Assembly: GCA_021738565.1 (NCBI GenBank)
Contig: JAIPBT010000013.1
Coordinates: 1 to 64,000 of the forward strand
Source: Bacteroidales bacterium
Lineage (GTDB): Bacteria; Bacteroidota; Bacteroidia; Bacteroidales; GCA-2748055
DNA length: 64,000 nt
Direction: 5' to 3'
In this document: piece after piece, positions 1 to 50,426 of the stretch
Numbering within the stretch: the first letter of the stretch is position 1
Layout of the letters: each line of letters starts with the position of its first letter
Program-made: the position numbers and the translations under genes
Notes under the pieces: generated by a model
The model's input: only the letters and a program-made list of their open reading frames with translations
Database searches by the model: none
What the model was told of the DNA's origin: nothing

Positions 1-134
1 CAGGCCGGGATTTTGCCGCCAGCTTCCTTCAGATTCCACCTCACGGTGGACACCCTTGCTCTTGGCTAACGCTTCCAACTGTCAAAGTGCGTTCGGGACT
101 TTCACCCTATAGTTATTGCCCATGCCGGGCAAAC
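1..134 (-). mobile_element. 5' end of a group II intron (truncated by window edge)
   Basis: Read on the minus strand from about 134 down to 1, the sequence begins GTTTGCCCGGCATGGGC, continues with AGGGTGAAAGTCCCGAACG and, further on, GGTGGAATCTGAAGGAAGC. From memory of the family, these blocks are typical of the 5' ribozyme domain (domain I) of bacterial group II introns with a reverse-transcriptase ORF. The usual 5' consensus is GTGYG, whereas here the boundary reads GTTTG, so the exact splice site is uncertain. The intron lies in the same orientation as the glycoside hydrolase gene it follows. The intron-encoded protein and the 3' end would be outside the window. Confidence 0.6.
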
Positions 135-6227: not shown

Positions 6228-6392
6228 ATATGAAATGTGAGTTTTGACCTCACAATTATACTACAAAAGCAAACTTAAGAAACTTTTTGAAGAAGTACAA
6301 TTAATGCGTATTCTTTTATATCCTTATGGTGAGTTTTGAAGTAACTATTGAGCTATAACAACATATTATCGTAGGAAACCGGATCCGCACAA

Positions 6393-7873
6393 GGTGAATA
6401 TCTTATCAATTTTACATCAGACCACAACTTTACAATTAAAATATCGTGTGTTTCTCCAGGTGAATATCTTATCAATTTTACATCAGACCACAACAGGGTG
6501 AAAATTCACGTTTGATATTTTCTGGTGAATATCTTATCAATTTTACATCAGACCACAACGCTTTGTGTTGAAAGAATAATGAGATTATAGGTGAATATCT
6601 TATCAATTTTACATCAGACCACAACAATACGATGTTACAATTTTACAACAAGAAGGGTGAATATCTTATCAATTTTACATCAGACCACAACTCATACCTG
6701 TTGCGGGAATATGGTAAACAAGGTGAATATCTTATCAATTTTACATCAGACCACAACCATCGAAAAACCCATGTTGCAAATGATAAAGGTGAATATCTTA
6801 TCAATTTTACATCAGACCACAACTTGATAATCTTACATACCTTCCATCGTGGTGGTGAATATCTTATCAATTTTACATCAGACCACAACCCTGTTTGACC
6901 CTTACAACCATTCTTAGAAGGTGAATATCTTATCAATTTTACATCAGACCACAACTAAAATCCAACAGTCCAAAGTCCTGGCTCTGGTGAATATCTTATC
7001 AATTTTACATCAGACCACAACCTGGGTTCGTCCTACCTTATCGGCCCTCGGGTGAATATCTTATCAATTTTACATCAGACCACAACCGTCTCCTCGTATT
7101 CCTTGACTGCGGCGTCGGTGAATATCTTATCAATTTTACATCAGACCACAACTGCTTTCTGTAAAGGTCAAGCACAGACTCGGGTGAATATCTTATCAAT
7201 TTTACATCAGACCACAACTTGATGCAGGTGATATTGGAGCAGAACCTGGGTGAATATCTTATCAATTTTACATCAGACCACAACAACAGGATTATCACAC
7301 CCTCGAACAGATGGGTGAATATCTTATCAATTTTACATCAGACCACAACGGCTATGGCTGTGGTTGATATATCCGCTCTGGTGAATATCTTATCAATTTT
7401 ACATCAGACCACAACCAATACCTGGGCCATGAAAAACTATCCAACGGTGAATATCTTATCAATTTTACATCAGACCACAACCCTTCTGTCGGGATTATGG
7501 GTATTCAGAAGGTGAATATCTTATCAATTTTACATCAGACCACAACTGCAGGGACTGGCAGTGGATTTTTCATCGGGTGAATATCTTATCAATTTTACAT
7601 CAGACCACAACTTTTGCCCTACTAACAGCACCGAAAATGAGGTGAATATCTTATCAATTTTACATCAGACCACAACTGGCTTGATGTGTTTGATACCGTT
7701 GTTGGTGGTGAATATCTTATCAATTTTACATCAGACCACAACTGGACAGGAATACACTACTATATTACTGGAGGTGAATATCTTATCAATTTTACATCAG
7801 ACCACAACAAAGGTGTCTATGTATGCAAACGCAACGTGGTGAATATCTTATCAATTTTACATCAGACCACAAC
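6393..7873 (-). CRISPR. CRISPR array, 23 identical 36-nt repeats, 22 spacers of 29-30 nt
   Basis: The 36-nt repeat reads, in crRNA orientation (minus strand), GTTGTGGTCTGATG at its 5' end and GATAAGATATTCACC at its 3' end. I located repeats starting at 6393, 6459, 6524, 6590, 6656, 6722, 6788, 6854, 6920, 6986, 7051, 7117, 7183, 7249, 7314, 7380, 7446, 7511, 7576, 7641, 7707, 7773 and 7838. All appear identical, including the two ends, so no decayed trailer repeat marks the old end. The direction comes from the tracrRNA anti-repeat at 13464-13488, which can pair only with minus-strand repeats. The cas2 end (7874 onward) is therefore the likely leader. Spacer sources are unknown. Confidence 0.98.
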
Positions 7874-8092
7874 CAAGCTCCTTGAAAGTGCTGTATTTAC
7901 TAAGTTTATTTAAGATTTTACGATCAGAAAAACGCCAATCGGAAGCATGGAAGTGAGATGCCTGATCAATTTTTTAATTCCTGGGGTTTGATATTCGTGT
8001 TTCAACATTTCAAAGAACTTCATCCAGATCAAATTTAAAAAACAAATTAACTTTTATCAATCATGGTGAATACAATAATTCTAAATTGCGAA
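7874..8092 (-). promoter_or_regulatory. Probable CRISPR leader with a candidate promoter
   Basis: AT-rich 219 bp between the array and cas2, upstream of the array in the inferred direction of transcription. On the minus strand it contains TAAATTTG (8030-8037), a perfect match to the Bacteroidetes -7 consensus TAnnTTTG, with a TTG about 20 nt upstream. Transcription would start near 8023 and enter the first repeat about 150 nt later. Leader identity is inferred from position; no consensus leader sequence is known to me. Confidence 0.45.
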
Positions 8093-9347: not shown

Positions 9348-12300
9348 TTAATTGCTTTTTAAAATTTCGCCCAATGGTGAAATAATAAAGTCCTTTTTCT
9401 CAAGTAGAAAATTAAAGTTTGAAGGGGTTAATCGTAATTTGGAAGGAAAGGTTACAAAATCAAATTTTGATTCACCATTTGTTAAGGACTTAGGAGGCTT
9501 CACTCCATGTTTATTTTCATAATCAGATTTTAGTTTTTCATCATTTCTGGCTTCCTGATGAAATTTAAATGTTATTCTTCCATCCTTGCTCATCTTTATC
9601 ACTTTATATAACCTTTTTGTTAGTTCATGTCTGCTTAGATCCCAAATTTCATCAGGTGAATTTTTCCAAAAGATTACTAAGCATCCAGTTTTTATAGAAT
9701 AAATATGCTTCATAACTAATTTACCTGATGTCTTTTCTGAATTAATCAGACCTTCTATTCCACCTAAATCCTGTGTCTTAAGATCTCTTTGAACGGAATC
9801 CTTGAAAAACTCACCGGCCTCCATATTGTTAATTATCTCAAAGTCCCGTTTCACTTTACCTTTCGTATCTCTTCCCTCGTAAATTGCAATTAAATAATTC
9901 CCGTCATTGGCAGCATAGTAATCCTCTTTATAGGGCTTCCTGTTTTTCAAGGACACGTCTCTCTGTTTCTTGATCTTTAAGGGGTTTGTTATCGTCGGTT
10001 GGAACACACGTGCCTTCCTGATTGGAACGGGTTCCCCGTTTTTGTTCGGAAGAGAGTACAGGTCCTCTATCTGCTTTTCAAGGTTTTCTATCTCTGCAAG
10101 GATTGCCGGTTCTTCATTTTCTTCAGCTTTTTGCTTTTTTCTGCCTAATTCCTCAATCTTCTGCCTGATTTGTTTTTCTTGGATCCTTCCCTCCCGGACA
10201 ATTTCCCTCACCCTGTTATCTACAATATTCTTAATATTGCTGTCGTCAATATCTGACAAGGATTTTCTTACTACGAACCTAATCTTATCTTCCTTCTCTC
10301 CTTTTTTATTAACTCCTTCTCTTTTAATCGCACCATAAAAAGTCTCTTTGTGCAGACTTCCGCGAACAGTGTCTCCTTTCTGGAATATCGGCTCTCCTTT
10401 TTTATTGTATTGGATCTTTCCCCGGATTCTCATTTTCTTTTTGCTTTGCTTCGGCAGCACATCTGGTGTGTAATGTGAGACTAATACTTCATTTTCGAGG
10501 TTCTTAACATCTTCAGCAAATGTGTTCCAAGGCTTATCCACTTTCGGTAATTTATCGCTATTTAATCTGTCCATCTCCTCCCAATCGTGATAGAACTTTG
10601 CCAGTCGTTCGTAATTATCTTTTGTAATGCAGGCAATAGTAACGGCATCTATGCAATGGTGGATATGATTTACCCGCTCTTTCTTCTCGAATATTTCCTG
10701 CAATCCCCAAATCTTGCGAAAATCTGCCACTGTACTTCCTTTAACAGTATACACCTTATCGAACATCGTCTTCAGATACAAACGGGCATATTTTGTAATA
10801 ATACCGGTATCATTTATCTGACTGTTTTTAAATCCCTCGGGAACCTCTTTCATAGTAAACCGGGAGTATTTTTTTTGCCAGTAATCCCTCTCATAGGCCA
10901 GTTCATGCCTTCGGGTAATCGCCCGATCTTTACTATCCTTGTCTGCTGCTCTTCTTGCGTTCCTGATCTCACGTTGGATTTGCATATTCAGGTTTTCAAT
11001 AGTTGTTCTCCATTCTTCTAATCGTTCCAGTATTTCAGCGTGGTTGTCAAGTTCATATGGGATCCTGTTCTTTTTTACAGACCGGTTGAATTTGCTGTCA
11101 GCAAGGGTTTTATTGGTCTGTGAATTATCAAAAGACTGACTTCTGGGGATTGTGTGCTCAATGTCATAGCTGGGATTTGGCCCGATAAATTCACTTATAG
11201 CAATCTCATTACCGGTGTAAATGCATTTGTGTTTCTGTTCTTCCCATAGTTGATATTTCAGGATATCTTCCTTAGTTGGCTCCTCACCTTTTAAATACTC
11301 TTTCAATCGCTTGGCATATTCCTGATGAGCATTTTCTCTTTTTGTCTGCCAATTCCTGATCCCTTTGCGCTCATTCGCATTAAGCAAACCGCGCGACATC
11401 TCAATATTCACTCTTGTATTCTTATCAACTATTTCTTCTTTGATCAATTCATTGATCACTTTTCGCAGCTGGTGCATGGCACGCATGGCCATCGGATTAC
11501 GCACAGACGAAACCATGGGGCTTCCCAGGTAGTATTTTCCATCATCGAGCTTAACAGGTGGTTTATACACATCAATGGCCGATGGATGGTAAAGCTTATT
11601 CACATTATCGGGTTTTACATCAAAATGATCAGTTACAAACCTGAAAACACGTTCCTCAATAGTCTCAGCAACGGCAAATTCTCCCTTCCCCATATTCCTG
11701 TTCATCTGTGATATTAAAAGCCCGGAAGCTTCCTGTTCAATTTCATTCTTTTTTCCTTCTGAAAAAGCATCATATTCCTTTTCACCAAAGTAAGCCCTGA
11801 TATTTTTATTTAGGTCGTCTAAAAAAAGCTGTGATGCCTCTTCACTCCAACTTTGCAGGTTCTCTCGTGCCTTCTTGATGACACCGTTTACTGCGTCTAC
11901 TATTTGTTTATGACGGCTCTGTGTCTGAATGATTGTGAATATTTCATCTTCAATAATTCTCCGGGTACTTTCTTCTTTCCAGTATTCCCGCGGTATTACC
12001 TCTTCCATATTGGCCAGAAATACAGCATGGGAATAGATCAAACCTGTTCTTAGATAAGGGAGTATTTTGCGAATGGCTTTAAGGCTTAATGATGAAAATT
12101 CCTTGCTCAACTTTATTTTAAGAAACACCTTGACTTGTTCTTCATCCAATAACAGTTTGTTTTTTGCAAAGGCAGCTAATTTTTCATCTGAATCAAAAGT
12201 GTACAAAACATGCCAGACGTCATGGATTGTAATTGAGGATACTTTCCCATCTTTTTCCCTTGTATATTCAATTTTATAATTCAGCAAATCTTCTCCAAAA

Positions 12301-13397
12301 AATTCTCTGAACCGGGCCGTAACCGGACAACCACTTACCACAGTTTTCATATTGTAATTGAATAGCCAGTCTTCTGGTAAAATATTCCGATCCCTGAAAT
12401 ATTTATATTGCTTTTTCGGCGCCAATTGTTTCGCCAGGTCTTCAAAATCAAAATGTTCCTTACTTTTTCTGAAAAACAAAGGAAGAATCTTTTCTCTCTC
12501 TTCCGCGTTAAGAGATCTTAATTGATCGTCTTCCGGTGTTTTAACTTTAATATTGTTGAGAAAACAAAGCATCCTGTACTCTTCAAATTCAATTCGGGAA
12601 GTCGAACATCTTGGTTTTGACGGTTCAAAAACACATTTCCCTATCAATCCTTTCTGGGATTTTAAAGGTCGCTGATAGAATATAGCATTGCGTACTTTTT
12701 CAGTAAATTCAATTGGCAGATTTTGAAAAGTACAAATGCGATTAAATTCTTCCAGATAGTGATCTTCCCTGTGGGTGTAAGTGTCTCTGATCTTTTCCCC
12801 TGATATGTACTTTTCATAAAAATATTGGCCTAATGTTAAATCTCCTTTTTCTTCATTTATTTTTGCAATTGTTTTCTTTACTTCACCTTCGCTCTCGTTA
12901 GTAGTATCCAGTCTGTTGCTCAAAAACCCTCTTCTTTGGGCCATGTGATAAAAAGCTCGTCCAATTGAATAACGGGCTTCAGTATCATTCAAATCCATTT
13001 TTTCCGTTACAGCCAGATTCCTGAAATAGTATGGTGTTTTTTCCTGAAATTCATCCGTTTTTAACCAATTTCTGAATTCCTCATTCTGCGGATAGATCTT
13101 CTCATACCGCCAGCTTTCCAATTCCTGCTTTGTCAATTTAGGACAATACCCGAATTCAGATAATACGGATAATGTAGCTATTTTTCGAAGTTTTCTTCTG
13201 TACTTTATTCTGCGGGCACTTCTGAATCCTGTTCTTTCTGCAGCTTTTGAGCCTTCTACACCTTTTTCAATTTTAACTCCTTCCTGAAATATTCGAACAC
13301 CTTTATCGACTAATTTAAATTCTTTTCCCTTTTCTTCTTCTACAACAGCCCACCCTATGCTGTTAGTCCCTAAGTCAAGACCTAATATTTTTTTCAT
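9348..13397 (-). CDS. cas9: CRISPR-associated endonuclease Cas9 (type II-C-like, 1349 aa)
   Basis: RNA-guided DNA endonuclease. Visible elements in order: RuvC-I with Asp8 in LGLDLGTNSIGWA; an arginine-rich bridge helix around residues 55-73 (RTGFRSARRIKYRRKLRK); RuvC-II with Glu666 in NIEMSRG; an HNH domain with catalytic His748 in YDIEHTIPRS, followed by SQTNKTLADSKFN; and RuvC-III with His914 and Asp917 in HHCIDAV. The remaining 430 residues form the C-terminal PAM-interacting part. All nuclease residues are intact. At 1349 residues it is longer than the compact II-C enzymes (about 1000-1100) but fits the long Bacteroidetes branch. First gene of cas9-cas1-cas2; a divergent tracrRNA lies 60 bp upstream. 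Confidence 0.97.
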   Translation of the reverse strand: MKKILGLDLGTNSIGWAVVEEEKGKEFKLVDKGVRIFQEGVKIEKGVEGSKAAERTGFRSARRIKYRRKLRKIATLSVLSEFGYCPKLTKQELESWRYEKIYPQNEEFRNWLKTDEFQEKTPYYFRNLAVTEKMDLNDTEARYSIGRAFYHMAQRRGFLSNRLDTTNESEGEVKKTIAKINEEKGDLTLGQYFYEKYISGEKIRDTYTHREDHYLEEFNRICTFQNLPIEFTEKVRNAIFYQRPLKSQKGLIGKCVFEPSKPRCSTSRIEFEEYRMLCFLNNIKVKTPEDDQLRSLNAEEREKILPLFFRKSKEHFDFEDLAKQLAPKKQYKYFRDRNILPEDWLFNYNMKTVVSGCPVTARFREFFGEDLLNYKIEYTREKDGKVSSITIHDVWHVLYTFDSDEKLAAFAKNKLLLDEEQVKVFLKIKLSKEFSSLSLKAIRKILPYLRTGLIYSHAVFLANMEEVIPREYWKEESTRRIIEDEIFTIIQTQSRHKQIVDAVNGVIKKARENLQSWSEEASQLFLDDLNKNIRAYFGEKEYDAFSEGKKNEIEQEASGLLISQMNRNMGKGEFAVAETIEERVFRFVTDHFDVKPDNVNKLYHPSAIDVYKPPVKLDDGKYYLGSPMVSSVRNPMAMRAMHQLRKVINELIKEEIVDKNTRVNIEMSRGLLNANERKGIRNWQTKRENAHQEYAKRLKEYLKGEEPTKEDILKYQLWEEQKHKCIYTGNEIAISEFIGPNPSYDIEHTIPRSQSFDNSQTNKTLADSKFNRSVKKNRIPYELDNHAEILERLEEWRTTIENLNMQIQREIRNARRAADKDSKDRAITRRHELAYERDYWQKKYSRFTMKEVPEGFKNSQINDTGIITKYARLYLKTMFDKVYTVKGSTVADFRKIWGLQEIFEKKERVNHIHHCIDAVTIACITKDNYERLAKFYHDWEEMDRLNSDKLPKVDKPWNTFAEDVKNLENEVLVSHYTPDVLPKQSKKKMRIRGKIQYNKKGEPIFQKGDTVRGSLHKETFYGAIKREGVNKKGEKEDKIRFVVRKSLSDIDDSNIKNIVDNRVREIVREGRIQEKQIRQKIEELGRKKQKAEENEEPAILAEIENLEKQIEDLYSLPNKNGEPVPIRKARVFQPTITNPLKIKKQRDVSLKNRKPYKEDYYAANDGNYLIAIYEGRDTKGKVKRDFEIINNMEAGEFFKDSVQRDLKTQDLGGIEGLINSEKTSGKLVMKHIYSIKTGCLVIFWKNSPDEIWDLSRHELTKRLYKVIKMSKDGRITFKFHQEARNDEKLKSDYENKHGVKPPKSLTNGESKFDFVTFPSKLRLTPSNFNFLLEKKDFIISPLGEILKSN

Positions 13398-15501: not shown

Positions 15502-16368
15502 ATGGATTTAAAAGATTTACAGAGACATATTGACCAGGTGATGAATGAGCAGAACAATAGGCCGATTCCAGAGTTTGAAGGATATTCGCCTTTTGAGATG
15601 CACAAGATATTACATTTTACTTTCGCAATAGATAGTCCTTTGAAACTTCAAAAATTGTCTGATTCTGATTATCAAAAGATTCCGATGCTTAATCAGGTAA
15701 AGTATTTGTCGGATTTGATTGAGAAAAACGGTGAGATTAAGCTAACAAACAAGGGATTTTTACCGACAAAGATAGTTTCAGATCTGTATAGTCAGGGATT
15801 CCTAAAAGAAGAACACATTGAAAAAGGGATTTCAAAATTATACAAGGAGACTGATTCAATGACTATAAATCTCACACGGATTTTGATTGAGCTTTCAGGA
15901 TTAACTAAAAAGAGAAATGGGAAATTAAGTTTAACAAAATCATCCCAAAAGATTCTTGGAGATAACGAGGAATTATTGCGACAGATATTTCTCACCTTCA
16001 CAAACAAGTTTAACTGGGCCTATTATGACGGATATGGTGAAAACCAAATCGGACAACTTGGATACGGATTCTCGTTGATCCTGCTTTCAAAATATGGACA
16101 AATAAAGCGACTGGATTCCTTTTACGCCGAGAAGTATTTCATGGCATTTCCTAAACTTTTAGATTCGCTGGAGCCAACATACGGAACTTTAGAAAGATAC
16201 TCGACAATGTGCTATTCGCTACGGACCTTTGAGAGATTCTTAGATTATTTTGGATTAATTACAATCGAAGAGGAGAAAAAAGGGTTTGATTCGATTAAAT
16301 ATATTGCAAAGACAGATTTATACGACAGATTAATAAAATGTACGCCACACAATCGAGTAGACGGCTGA
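15502..16368 (+). CDS. Unknown protein, 288 aa, cassette-like setting
   Basis: I recall similar proteins from Bacteroidetes accessory DNA, where they start MxLKDLQRHIDxxMNxQNNRP, but know no function. It is soluble, with no signal peptide or membrane segment, rich in Lys and Leu, and predicted mostly helical. Two stretches look like winged-helix pairs: about 60-105 (KYLSDLIEKNGEIKLTNKGF) and 120-150 (TRILIELSGLTKKRNGKLSL), each a helix pair followed by a hairpin. The final eleven codons, KCTPHNRVDG and stop, lie inside a repeat that also occurs 90 bp upstream of the start. The 3' end of the gene has thus been supplied or replaced by the flanking repeat. AT-rich compared with the surrounding housekeeping genes. 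Confidence 0.75.
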   Translation: MDLKDLQRHIDQVMNEQNNRPIPEFEGYSPFEMHKILHFTFAIDSPLKLQKLSDSDYQKIPMLNQVKYLSDLIEKNGEIKLTNKGFLPTKIVSDLYSQGFLKEEHIEKGISKLYKETDSMTINLTRILIELSGLTKKRNGKLSLTKSSQKILGDNEELLRQIFLTFTNKFNWAYYDGYGENQIGQLGYGFSLILLSKYGQIKRLDSFYAEKYFMAFPKLLDSLEPTYGTLERYSTMCYSLRTFERFLDYFGLITIEEEKKGFDSIKYIAKTDLYDRLIKCTPHNRVDG

Positions 16369-16390
16369 CGGTCAGATGACCGCCAGTGCG
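16336..16390 (+). repeat. Right copy of cassette-bracketing imperfect repeat
   Basis: GTACGCCAC, CGGCTGAC and ATGACCGCC match the block at 15407-15460 in order and orientation. The stop codon of the unknown gene (16366-16368) lies inside it. Confidence 0.55.
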
Positions 16391-16447
16391 CCTCTCACAG
16401 TTCTCCGCCGTAATCAAATGAAGGCGGACCACCGCATTCCGGAACCA

Positions 16448-16535
16448 CCTGACGAGCCGATCCACCTTCGGCGGTGAGGATCACCTAACGATCGCCGTAG
16501 GCGATCCCCTAACGGCCACGTAGTGGCCTATCGTT
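16448..16535. repeat. Hairpin array joined by CCTRACG linkers
   Basis: The order is CCTGACG (16448-16454), an imperfect hairpin GATCCACC...GGTGAGGATC, CCTAACG (16484-16490), the perfect palindrome ATCGCC-GTA-GGCGAT (16491-16505), CCTAACG (16508-16514) and the perfect palindrome GGCCAC-GTA-GTGGCC (16514-16528). The stems differ completely in sequence while the linkers and the 6-3-6 geometry are kept. An analogous array lies at 21842-21885. Confidence 0.75.
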
Positions 16536-16829
16536 GAATTGACCGGAGGTTCTTTGAAGTATTTCAGGGTTTCATGCTTTCGGTGCCTTTGGCCAGGGGA
16601 ATAATACATTGAGTAATGCTTTTTTCTATCTTTTTAATGACCACAGGACATACCTTTCCCGGCTTAATAATTAACAGCTTATAGAAAGTTACTTAACTTT
16701 CAGTATTTATGATGATCAAGCCATCATCAAGTGGCTGGGGATCATCCCGTTCCGGGTATTTAATTTCCTTTCTTAAAATCCATTATCTCATTTGGGATTT
16801 CCATGTTTTCCAGTTGAAAAGTCATTTTT

Positions 16830-16892
16830 CCCTATTGAAATGTCATGTTTCCCCGTTGAAATGTCATGTTTCCCCATTGATTTTCCATTCCA
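16830..16892. repeat. 21-bp tandem repeats
   Basis: CCCTATTGAAATGTCATGTTT (16830-16850) is followed directly by a copy at 16851-16871 that differs in its first bases, and by a diverged third unit from 16872. A partial related unit precedes it. The period is a multiple of three, which opens long but meaningless frames on both strands. Confidence 0.7.
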
Positions 16893-17465
16893 CCTTATTA
16901 AAGAACCAATTTTCCATATTGATCCTGCAGTGTTCCATGTTGAAATTGATCGAACTGTTAACGGAAAGTGATCCTGCAATATCGCTGCATGAAATATTGA
17001 GTTTGAAATGCGACCAGATAAACCGGGAATGATGTCTGGAATTATGGAGGTCCTAATCTGAATTGAGCTGTTCATTGTTTCCGGGTTTTTTAGTTATAAT
17101 TTCAGTTTTGGTTTGCCGAAAAGGAAGCTCATTTACAAAGGCCCCTTTATTATATAATATAGATGGCCCCTAAAAAGTCATATGTTTTTTGCGACTTTTT
17201 TTCAAAAAAATGCAAATGAAATTATGACAAAAGGTCCGGATGCCTTATGTGGCAGGGTATAGCGGGGAATTAAAAAGAATGGCAAAAATTCTAAGAAAAT
17301 CGCTTGTGACAAAACGATATTCATTGGCGCAAGACGCAGATGATGATGTTATGATATTACTTTGTCCGTAAAATTCGACTTATTTTTTACAGGTGAATGC
17401 GGAATTATTCTCCCGACATTTTGTCGGGATCATGAGCTCACTCCTTTCAGTCGTTCGGTTTCCTT

Positions 17466-17702
17466 GCATGATTCCGGGTGAGGTGGGCTTAACAACGGAA
17501 CAAAAATAAGCCTGCGCTACGCTGCGGCTTTTTATTTGCCTTAGGCCCGCAAATTCAAGCACAGCTTGATTTTCGAGAGGCGGAATTATTTGCATGATTC
17601 CGAAGGGGGTGGGCTTTACAACGGAACAAAAATAAGCCTGCGCTACGCTGCGGCTTTTTATTTGCCTTAGGCCCGCAAATTCAAGCACAGCTTGATTTGC
17701 AG
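17466..17702 (+). repeat. 126-bp tandem duplication related to the tRNA-Met 3' end
   Basis: Unit 1 (17466-17591) and unit 2 (17592-17702, cut short) are nearly identical. Each contains GCATGATTC, then ACAACGGAACAAAAATAA, a small GC-rich hairpin, TTTTTATTTG and GCAAATTCAAGCACAGCTTG. ACAACGGAACAAAAATAA is also the sequence directly downstream of the tRNA-Met gene, read on its own strand, so the unit looks like a decayed copy of tRNA 3' flanking DNA inserted in the opposite orientation. A third related copy is at 13597-13680. Confidence 0.7.
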
Positions 17703-21731: not shown

Positions 21732-21795
21732 AAAATCGTAGAGGATTATAAACCGAGCCTGTCGAGGTTTCATTATCCCCTCTTTACCTGTCGGT

Positions 21796-21886
21796 TCCTG
21801 AGCGAAGTAACGAGTTTACCGAGTTACGAGCCGAAGGACCCCCTAACGTGAACGAAGTGAACCCCTGACGTTCGCCTTCGGCGAAC
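21796..21886. repeat. Second hairpin array with CCTRACG linkers
   Basis: CCTGAGCG near 21797 is followed by GAGTTTACCGAGTTACGAG, CCTAACG (21842-21848), the direct repeat TGAAC-GAAG-TGAAC, CCTGACG (21864-21870) and the perfect 6-3-6 palindrome TTCGCC-TTC-GGCGAA (21871-21885). It shares linkers and geometry, but not stem sequence, with 16448-16535. Confidence 0.7.
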
Positions 21887-21895
21887 CAAAATGAA

Positions 21896-23290
21896 CTACT
21901 GCTCCTGGTTCTGCATTTTACCCCTCGCTATGGATGCAAATATGCCGAAAAAGCAAAGTGCCGTGAAAATATGAATGGCAATATTCATAGATTTAATAAA
22001 CTGTTCACTGTTTCCTGCTGTAATTTCTGTTTTTCCTATTAAAACTGAAAACAGCACAAGGACAATGCCCATGCTCAGCATTTGTCCGATCATTCTCATG
22101 GTCCCCACCGCACCGGAAGCGATCCCGTAATACCTTGACTCCACCGAACTCATAATAGCATTGGTGTTGGGTGAGGAAAAAAGTGCGAATCCCAATCCGA
22201 GCAGTGCCAGTACAATGAAAAAGTAATTCAGTGATGTTCCCGATTTTGCAAAGCCAAGCAGGAAGAGCCCAAGTGTGGTGAATGACATACCCAGCGAGGC
22301 CAGCACCTGGGGCTGGATCCTGTCGGACAACCTGCCGGTAACAGGTGATATTACTGCCATTATCAGGGGCTGTATAACAAGCATTGCCCCTGCTTCTCCG
22401 GGGGTCATCCCTTTTACAAACTGAAAATAGAGGCTTAACAAAAAGCCAACGCCGAAAGTTGCGCTGTAATTGATCAGCGCTGCAAGATTTGAAAATGCAA
22501 AAACCCTGTTAAAGCGATACAATTTGATCTCCACCAGCGGCTCTTTGATCCTGTTCTCAACAACAACAAACATGAAAAACATGGTGATCCCTGCAGCCAT
22601 GACCGGGTACCCCCAAATATCGGGCAACAATGAAATACCGGACATAAATAACCCCAGTGACAGCATGTACATCAGGGCGCCTGCCCAGTCGAACCGCTCT
22701 TTTTTAGCTGCCGACCATTCGCCGTGCAACTTGAAGATCAATAGAAAAAATGACAATGTACCTATGGGCACCAGCATCCAGAACACGCTTCTCCAGCCAA
22801 ACAACTCCGTCATGAGTCCGCCTACAAAAGGGCCCGCGGTGAGGCCTGCATAGACAGCTGCCACATTGATACCCAGGGCCCTGCCACGTTCACCAGGCGG
22901 GAAGACACTGCTGAGGATAGCAATGCCCGTACCAAAGATCATTGCACTGCCGATGCCCTGGAATATACGACTGGTGATCAGCATGGTCATATCCACAGAG
23001 ACTGCACCGGCGACACTGGAAAGTGTAAAAATAATGAGGCCGTAGGTAAAGATCTTTTTTCTTCCGACAATATCACCCAGACGGCCTGAAGGCAGTAAGA
23101 AAGCAGCTGTGGCTAACAGGTAAACCGTTGCGGTCAGGTTCAGAAGAATTGCATCTGCTTCAAGATCCTCTCCGATGGATGGCAAAGCAACATTGAGAGC
23201 CGCCCCGAGAAAAGGGGTCAGGAATGATGCAACAGTTGCGACAAGCAATGCAGTGTTTTTTTCTGATCTGGAAGAAACAGTATGTGTCAT
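21896..23290 (-). CDS. MFS multidrug exporter, DHA2 (EmrB/QacA-like) family
   Basis: 464 residues with about 14 hydrophobic segments, the DHA2 number. Family motifs are visible: GRLGDIVGRKKIF after segment 2 (motif A, about residues 68-80), SRIFQGIGSAMIFGTG (about 107-122, motif B), and VYAGLTAGPFVGGLMTELFGWRSVFW (given here in parts: AGPFVGG, motif C, then FGWRSVFW). Probably a proton-driven exporter of drugs or other organic compounds; the substrate is unknown. Single gene on the minus strand; 23291-23543 upstream is a plain divergent promoter region with the START-like gene. Confidence 0.87.
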   Translation of the reverse strand: MTHTVSSRSEKNTALLVATVASFLTPFLGAALNVALPSIGEDLEADAILLNLTATVYLLATAAFLLPSGRLGDIVGRKKIFTYGLIIFTLSSVAGAVSVDMTMLITSRIFQGIGSAMIFGTGIAILSSVFPPGERGRALGINVAAVYAGLTAGPFVGGLMTELFGWRSVFWMLVPIGTLSFFLLIFKLHGEWSAAKKERFDWAGALMYMLSLGLFMSGISLLPDIWGYPVMAAGITMFFMFVVVENRIKEPLVEIKLYRFNRVFAFSNLAALINYSATFGVGFLLSLYFQFVKGMTPGEAGAMLVIQPLIMAVISPVTGRLSDRIQPQVLASLGMSFTTLGLFLLGFAKSGTSLNYFFIVLALLGLGFALFSSPNTNAIMSSVESRYYGIASGAVGTMRMIGQMLSMGIVLVLFSVLIGKTEITAGNSEQFIKSMNIAIHIFTALCFFGIFASIARGKMQNQEQ

Positions 23291-47365: not shown

Positions 47366-47734
47366 TAGATAAATTGCGGGTTTGAAGCGTTAAAAATAAC
47401 ATAATTTTGATACAATTGAAGCCAGGTTCCGACTCAATTTTCCCGTGTGTGGCATTTTGCCATATATTCAGAAAAGAAGCAAATTGGAGACATTCCCTCC
47501 GGTCTTTTTGTCGTGCCGGTACCAATGTGTTTTTAAAAATTTTGCAGCAACACAGATATCGGACATTATGGACAGACACTAATTAAAGCATGTCAATACA
47601 GCCCGGTGGCTGGATCATAATGTTCGTTTGCAAGGCCTGCGAAGTCGGGAAATGCGGAGTCCCGATATATTATCGGGATGAGCAATTTCCCGACGAGCGT
47701 AACGCAGCAAACGGACATTATGGACAGACACTAA
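47366..47734. other. Intergenic region with an inserted hairpin element
   Basis: Between the sensor kinase start and the TonB receptor stop. The first 170 bp are AT-rich and probably contain the kinase promoter (minus strand). The rest contains the hairpin element and its flanking direct repeats described separately. No coding frame is supported. Confidence 0.6.
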
Positions 47735-50158: not shown

Positions 50159-50193
50159 AGCAATTAAATTTTATAATTCACGATGTATAAAGC

Positions 50194-50272
50194 AATTCCC
50201 TTCGCCGGCATTACCCGGATCAGGTCTAAGGGTATGATCTCAGCCTGGTATTTAAGGCACCCCCCTTAGTGA
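50194..50272 (-). promoter_or_regulatory. TPP riboswitch (THI element)
   Basis: On the minus strand, GGGGTGCCTTAAATACCAGG, then CTGAGATCATACCC and ACCTGATCCGGGTAATGCCG with GCGAAGGGA. These are the conserved thiamin-pyrophosphate aptamer blocks (GGGGUGCC, CUGAGA, ACCUGAUCNGGNUAAUNCCNGCGNAGGGA) in the right order. It ends about 35 nt before the TonB receptor start; in such leaders TPP binding usually lowers expression. No separate terminator is evident, so control of translation start is more likely. Confidence 0.96.
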
Positions 50273-50426
50273 AATTACCCTGTAAAGTTAAGAAGGTTTT
50301 ATTAGAAAATGAAACGAACATGCTCAAAAAGAAACGAGCATATTCGTTTCATTAATAAACATGCCCGGTAATAGAAATACTTTTTTTTACATCTTTGCGT
50401 TATAGAATAACGCCATTTATCATCTG

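Follow-up and report, generated by a model that had tools for sequence, protein, structure and literature searches.

What sort of element keeps a short tag constant while the palindrome behind it changes from one copy to the next? The question is raised by two arrays in a Bacteroidales genome, located within a window that comprises the whole analysed stretch of 64,000 nucleotides (G000:C6:1-64000). The genome to which the window belongs, called the own genome below, amounts to 3.98 Mb in 83 contigs. The original prediction described modules in which a constant CCTRACG heptamer precedes a palindrome of freely changing sequence, and regarded these modules as unlike classical REPs. We examined their structure, their association with the tag, their genomic position and flanks, and their occurrence in relatives.

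Architecture of the two arrays

The two palindromes that were said to share a heptamer are exact in their letters, as CCTAACG-ATCGCC-GTA-GGCGAT (16484-16505) and CCTAACG-GCCAC-GTA-GTGGC (16508-16527). The common 6-3-6 size ascribed to them fits the first hairpin only without the last G of the tag and the second only with it. When this G and the C after the palindrome are counted, the stems have 7 bp (16490-16506) and 6 bp (16514-16528). The heptamer is therefore not wholly outside the hairpin, because its last G closes the stem; since this G pairs with C, the usual unit has 22 bp and reads CCCTRAC, then G-N5-NNN-N5'-C. The second array was expected to follow the same rule. Its second module does so, with a perfect 7-3-7 palindrome and a TTC loop (21870-21886), whereas its first module (21848-21862) is a direct repeat with an mfe of 0.0. 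The module at 21864-21886 leaves 9 nt between the array and the 3' end of a 464-aa ORF on the minus strand (21896-23290). Downstream of the first array lie a 21-bp tandem repeat (3.8 copies, 16802-16880) and a 126-bp one (1.9 copies, 17464-17698).

Table 1. Modules of the two arrays and the repeated sequences beside them, in window coordinates
Position	Strand	Feature	Basis or remark
16351-16399	-	Group II intron-like remnant (3' end, domain VI)	One end of the 168-bp block common to C17
16448-16483	+	CCTGACG tag with a longer, imperfect module ahead of the hairpins (GATCC ... GGATCA)	C17 paralogue about 84% identical
16484-16506	+	Tag CCTAACG and hairpin GATCGCC-GTA-GGCGATC, 7-3-7; first G of the hairpin is the last base of the tag	Exact sequence
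16508-16528	+	Tag CCTAACG and hairpin GGCCAC-GTA-GTGGCC, 6-3-6	Model match C6:16507-16535, E 0.0056; module is a training-set member
21791-21840	+	Dispersed repeat abutting the 5' side of the second array	5' flank class II; 50 bp at 98-100% common to C76b and C83; also in C30b
21842-21862	+	Tag CCTAACG, then GTGAAC-GAA-GTGAAC, which is a direct repeat and not a hairpin	Model match, E 9.6e-5; training-set member
21864-21886	+	Tag CCTGACG and hairpin GTTCGCC-TTC-GGCGAAC, 7-3-7	Sequence

Association between the tag and the hairpin

CCTRACG alone occurs 12 times in the window against 6.5 expected, a count reached in 4 of 100 shuffles. Two such linkers at a distance of 8 to 38 nt (CCTRACG-N8..38-CCTRACG, no palindrome required) matched 19 times in the 3.98 Mb of the own genome, where the reversed pattern matched twice; the 19 were counted as 18 distinct matches, as C28:14961 and C69:14 are identical letters at two contig ends. 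Three congeners yielded 0, 2 and 1 matches versus 2, 15 and 9 for the reversed pattern. A tighter form of the double linker gave 8 versus 0 in the own genome, and 0 in 27 family relatives. The 18 distinct spacers fold to a summed -121.2 kcal/mol, compared with a shuffled mean of -48.2 and with -78.2 for the best of 1000 shuffled sets; taken singly, 12 of the 18 reach p<0.05 against shuffles and the other six are not significant.

A perfect palindrome follows the exact CCTRACG in 8 of 65 cases, compared with 7 of 520 for seven scrambled heptamers, in a 438-kb sample of five contigs that were picked for their double-linker matches, and 2 of these 8 palindromes look unrelated. A looser search that tolerated weak stems and a single mismatch in the 8-mer showed no excess (46/404 versus 27-57 of 305-480 for eight permuted words), and we therefore claim the association for the exact tag only. 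A genome-wide count had been named as a test of the link between linker and palindrome, and the exact motif survives it in both the double-linker count and spacer folding.

Stem types and their decay

Stem variation was assessed on 20 modules, all of 29 nt, taken from linker-pattern arrays together with neighbours picked by eye; modules of other length, including the two 7-bp hairpins of the window, and one misaligned row were left out. Standard pairs fill 92.5% of the pair cells versus 67.5% after shuffling, the covariation score is 0.703 versus 0.244, and slid controls gave 30-49%. The tag reads CCTRAC in 17 of the 20 modules and is a one-base variant in the other three. The outer pair is G-C in 17 modules and G-T in three, the inner pair is C-G in 18, and the four pairs between them vary. 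GNA loops are found in 13 of these 20 modules, in 18 of 28 when eight more own modules are included, and in 9 of the 10 typed in a sister genus. TNC loops do not occur in these counted sets; outside them, the exceptions are the TTC at 21870-21886 and a CTC in the second hairpin at G008:C7. The C-GNA-G apex is very stable in DNA, and where apex polarity holds, the tag strand is also the one that bears C-GNA-G. The computed energies of both strands are alike. Within arrays, the modules run head to tail.

The 20 modules fall into four clusters (7, 5, 5 and 3). Within clusters, 11 pair changes are one-sided (7 to a mismatch, 4 to a wobble) and five are two-sided (three still paired); among the 24 cells that can be compared between cluster representatives, 14 have changed on both sides and not one on a single side. 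This pattern points to a limited number of stem types, each decaying after it has been copied, and less to steady compensatory drift. Arm exchange through a common CAC-GAA-GTG centre may have produced mixed modules, for example TTCAC-GAA-GTGGC on C66. The predicted combination of a constant linker with a changing inverted repeat is thus borne out by the double-linker counts, the covariation and the folding of the spacers. To call the stems freely changing was too strong, given four clusters with mostly one-sided decay and an orthologous locus, described below, at which the same two stems are kept. A dispersed element with a constant stem, CCGATA-TAT-TATCGG after GAGTC, is present at 47657-47678 and, with this copy counted, five times in 438 kb of the own genome.

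Occurrence in relatives

A covariance model built from the modules (R1) gave at least 29 matches at E<=1 in the own genome among the 150 of 641 first-look candidates that were scored. At E<0.01 there were 21 matches, five of which lie outside the training set (C59, C18, C30:27687, C17:209 and C83). Across the family, 5 of 28 genomes had matches at E<=0.1, namely the own genome and G006, G007, G008 and G010 of the sister genus with eight matches together; the E-values are per genome, some weak matches could be due to chance, and G006 has a single match (E 0.063). By eye, the matches in G007, G008 and G010 lie within CTAAC-hairpin arrays. Their rule is CTAAC followed by GNNNGC-NNN-GCNNNC, with mostly GNA loops and with TTC, CTT, CCC, ATC and CCT as the variable triplets, and at G008:C203 the hairpin is surrounded by successive CTAAC/CCAAC units. 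Seven perfect 6-3-6 palindromes follow CTAAC in the sister genus versus 0.05 expected, six of the seven being on contigs picked for having matches. The same search of unselected stretches found one in 560 kb of G008 (0.03 expected), one unrelated-looking in 371 kb of G010, and none in 177 kb of G007 or in the stretches of G011 and G002. Near L222:8741 in G008, GGAGTTAAT units, which are short tandem words, fill an intergenic gap.

An order-wide search with the model, which used stricter filters and scored 25 candidates per genome, matched 2 of 295 genomes: the own genome and, weakly, G109. The phage collection gave no match. A separate trial pattern was also without hits. One fixed-spacing pattern was found outside the family on eight genome contigs of scattered phyla, near the rough chance estimate of 7-8, and a triple-linker pattern hit 53 stretches of viral contigs that by eye are other tandem repeats. 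The viral contigs L060, L080, L098 and L101 have tandem palindromes or near-palindromes that include CCTGACG within the repeat unit.

The orthologous locus lies behind lpd. Lpd of G007 and of G008 are 91% identical, and behind the gene both genomes have GCCCGC..GCGGGC and GCTTGC..GCAAGC, with differing loops and GTTAG spacers. At the same position, G011 has the hairpin GTGCTAAA-CGG-TTTAGCAC ending on GTTAG, G010 (L276) has GTCGAAA-like heptamers as short tandem words, and the lpd locus of the own genome has no such hairpins. Among the 21 of 23 loci that were read (G002 and G003 excepted), a GTTAG-footed hairpin stands at three lpd ends (G007, G008 and G011); G015 has GTTAA/GTTAG words without a hairpin, and the hairpins of G023, G024 and G026 are untagged.

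Genomic position and flank junctions

Nineteen of 20 arrays (15 own, five from the sister genus) overlap no ORF of at least 90 aa, and the remaining one overlaps a 108-aa ORF on C28. The array adjoins the 3' end of an ORF in 15 of the 20 cases (10/15 own, 5/5 sister genus). The distance from the stop is -6 to 71 nt for the sister-genus arrays and 9 to 129 nt for those own arrays that have such an end; this count used a simple ORF caller, and the own locus C50 contains just short CGACAATCG.

We compared 150-bp flanks of 20 own loci with hand-set bounds, and counted similarity only where it reached to 40 nt or less from the array. On the 5' side 13 loci fell into five classes, and on the 3' side 10 loci into three. 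The 5' flanks of C30a, C45 and C76a agree at 97-99% over 150 bp, and yet C30a continues into the 3' class beta, common to C17b, C47b and C69b, while C45 continues into class gamma, common to C41 and C59. Class beta in turn stands behind three different 5' flanks. The first array of the window and C17a have only the 5' flank in common: 168 bp are homologous between this array and C17, and the hairpin after the second tag differs. The second array has a 5' flank common to C30b, C76b and C83, and a 3' flank common to none. Both flanks agree in C17b/C47b and in C76b/C83, as expected of block copies. These discordant flank classes indicate that the arrays often mark the ends of shared blocks. A contig end lies within 500 bp of 9 of the 20 array loci versus approximately 2% expected by length; long repeats thus probably adjoin the arrays, and part of the junctions depend on the edges of the assembly. 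Repeats that insert into arrays or beside them would likewise produce discordant flanks. The proposal of a recombination substrate gains support, since one 5' repeat class is joined to different 3' sequences at arrays. The palindromes are combined with other repeat motifs in more than one way, a mosaic feature like that of BIMEs.

Discussion

We favor, with a little less than even confidence, the interpretation that the modules are REP-like tagged hairpins that act as junctions of mosaic repeats through hairpin-provoked strand exchange. The tag, the covarying stems, the position, the discordant flanks and the kinship with the sister-genus form are established, and from these we infer the following mechanism. 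The single-stranded tag strand, for example as the lagging-strand template, would fold into mini-hairpins at which replication or repair may stall. The common tag and apex could then let strands re-anneal, or change template, from one module to another, and such exchange would shuffle, duplicate and delete whole modules and join neighbouring repeats. Once formed, a module type would be copied with its block and then decay by point mutation. The discordant flanks and the hairpin difference between the first array and C17 speak for this mechanism; against it, no exchange event was observed, the polarity of the apex has the exceptions given above, and the computed energies do not separate the two strands. 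Selection acting on the hairpin would likewise account for the lpd locus, with its constant stems and changing loops. With one tag, several adjacent stem types and an orthologous locus in sister species, the arrays are a small, countable case; a comparison of strains could show how tagged palindromes arise, are exchanged and decay.

The contrast with classical REPs depends on the definition of a REP. It is weak under the definition as a conserved 5'-terminal tetranucleotide with a palindrome of variable base composition (PMC3686654), because this amounts to a constant tag with a variable palindrome. It stands under the RepRanger definition of highly similar copies with a common consensus motif (PMC12306157), as the modules share the tag and the apex but not the stems. 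Like GTAG REPs (REP/RAYT, REPIN, BIME), the modules have a constant unpaired tag 5' of a short, class-variable palindrome, lie in intergenic DNA behind genes, and form composite mosaics. They differ in the tag, which is GT[A/G]G in these REPs versus CCTRAC (own genome) or CTAAC (sister genus), in having several stem types per array, and in that no RAYT was found beside them. Families tagged with GTAG or CGTC include sub-families with alternative complementary stem residues (PMC3733652). REP copies usually exceed 100 (PMC2817692), many families have 20-100 copies or fewer (PMC3733652), and the 3.98 Mb of the own genome hold at least the 29 matches given above.

CGTC REPs resemble the modules in that no dedicated transposase is known for them, and they are reported from Bacteroidetes among other phyla (PMC3733652). 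Read on the complementary strand, the module tag and the closing C give CGTYAGG, although in the modules the first C of this word takes part in the stem. CGTC REPs have stems of 8-9 bp that nearly always begin with A/T, loops of 4-5 nt, a short tail that is often CCA, and mostly head-head dimers (PMC3733652), in contrast to the 6-7 bp stems, closing G-C pair, 3-nt loops and head-to-tail order of the modules. Because the sequence features of neither super-family fit, we place the modules outside both: they work like REPs, and we class them as a variant of that kind and as members of neither the GTAG nor the CGTC super-family. They look like a REP relative with an unusual tag, and they mark sites at which repeated DNA was spliced.

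More distant likenesses were also considered. The TAACTGA direct repeats of Beggiatoaceae, Cyanobacteria and five Bacteroidetes are short, TAAC-bearing and mostly intergenic, and resemble the CTAAC runs of the sister genus; they are not described as hairpins, however, and in the genome chiefly examined most of them lie ahead of start codons (PMC4679880). The repetitive hairpin-forming elements of sponge mitochondria are tandem intergenic hairpins for which spread by insertion and recombination have been proposed, but they are organellar, and their stems are conserved while their loops vary, unlike the modules (PMC2800124). Our search of the literature, mostly open-access, found no account of a CTAAC-tagged hairpin family. 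Integron attC sites have RYYYAAC and GTTRRRY boxes, inverted partners that pair with each other. This identity was rejected, as the module tags are direct repeats in arrays and not inverted partners.

Among the other explanations, the arrays may be 3'-end RNA elements, that is, transcript stabilisers or end signals whose pairing is kept by selection on RNA. The frequent position behind genes, the covarying stems, the constancy of stems with changing loops at lpd in G007 and G008, and the folding of window 16440-16535 (z -3.1) are all consistent with this idea. We nevertheless consider it possible but unlikely, as the second array with its flank folds like shuffles on the minus strand (z 0.18), mismatches pile up inside clusters, and 18 of the 21 lpd ends read lack a GTTAG-tagged hairpin. 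Moreover, the tag strands of 28 modules have nine G-T versus five A-C cells, which is no clear pointer to RNA, and neither 16484-16528 nor 21842-21886 has a terminator-like site with a U-tract. An intrinsic terminator was rejected for both arrays, since a hairpin followed by a U-tract is found at neither.

Movement by a transposase, now or formerly, is somewhat harder to accept. The modules would then be REPs or similar single-strand elements whose TAAC-bearing foot is recognised by a Y1/HUH transposase (RAYT). A tag with a hairpin is indeed the anatomy of a REP, REPs lie mostly downstream of genes (PMC3733652), and a Bacteroidetes subclass of such enzymes is flanked by atypical structures (PMC6006769). 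The module-bearing G007 and G008 have two Y1 matches each, and TAAC-footed hairpins are found in 4 of 15 Y1 stretches of relatives (G022, two of G026, and G027). The hairpins near these Y1 genes, however, lack CTAAC, and at least one base of their TAAC is paired within the stem, unlike in the modules. Tagged hairpins are also absent from all four Y1 stretches in G007 and G008. The single Y1_Tnp match of the own genome is interrupted by a TAG, and its 3.4-kb stretch is free of tagged hairpins. Altogether, no CTAAC-tagged hairpin was found near Y1 at the 15 places in relatives or at the own one (incomplete genomes). The module-bearing G010 and G006 have no Y1 match (genomes 80-85% complete), and the head-to-tail order of the modules also argues against this origin. 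The Y1 units of G022, G026 and G027 are RAYT-like and perhaps ancestral to the modules. In L300, L302, L303 and L304, the Y1 genes of these three genomes stand among perfect hairpins, several with GAA loops and some with a partly paired TAAC at the foot.

A bolder reading, which we regard as quite unlikely, is a RAYT-free REP-like system in which the tag and the C-GNA-G mini-hairpin are recognised, or provoke strand exchange, on single-stranded DNA. The stem could take on any sequence, new stems would be made in place, and the arrays would be exchange points for mosaic intergenic DNA.

It is less probable again that fold-back or template switching beside a CTAAC repeat creates new palindromes in place, with the tag as the leftover of a short tandem repeat, an explanation that we judge improbable. 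Template switching can make perfect hairpins, and a single event suffices for a perfect stem (PMC8794818). The hairpin of G008:C203 stands in a CTAAC/CCAAC run, other intergenic CTAAC or GTTAG repeats occur in G008 and G010, the lpd locus of G011 has a different stem on the same GTTAG foot, and all the differing pairs between cluster representatives are two-sided. On the other hand, no ancestor-descendant pair shows the switch, and in 374 kb of the own genome the sole run of at least three CTAAC within 60 nt is itself an array. Several loci have stem types in common, which is the mark of copying. A chance or low-complexity artefact, with which the relaxed one-mismatch test and the pick-up of other tandem repeats by the triple-linker pattern in viral contigs would agree, is hardly credible, as the model matches oppose it and the double-linker counts, the covariation on 20 modules and the spacer folding rule it out for the exact motif.

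A group II intron was considered as a carrier of the modules and rejected: the remnant lies only at the first array and C17, none was seen at other arrays, and the assembly has no RVT_1 match.

Group II intron-like traces and other features of the window

Words of the remnant at 16351-16399 lie inside an Rfam Intron_gpII match in L054; this stretch of the window itself gave no group II match. A stretch approximately 80% like it is held by 209 plasmid records, mostly from Escherichia (80% over 48% of the 121-base query), and in the one plasmid examined it adjoins tet(X4) and an ISVsa3 transposase gene. At 1-50 (minus strand), an Rfam group-II-D1D4-3 match is truncated by the start of the contig. 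The assembly has no RVT_1 match, and its intron copies may have been collapsed or left unbinned.

Repeats of approximately 36 bp with spacers of approximately 30 bp occupy 6390-7874 and 9348-13397 (minus strand), near a 1349-aa ORF that is Cas9-like by eye, and together they probably form a type II CRISPR locus. A TPP riboswitch lies at 50180-50274 on the minus strand.
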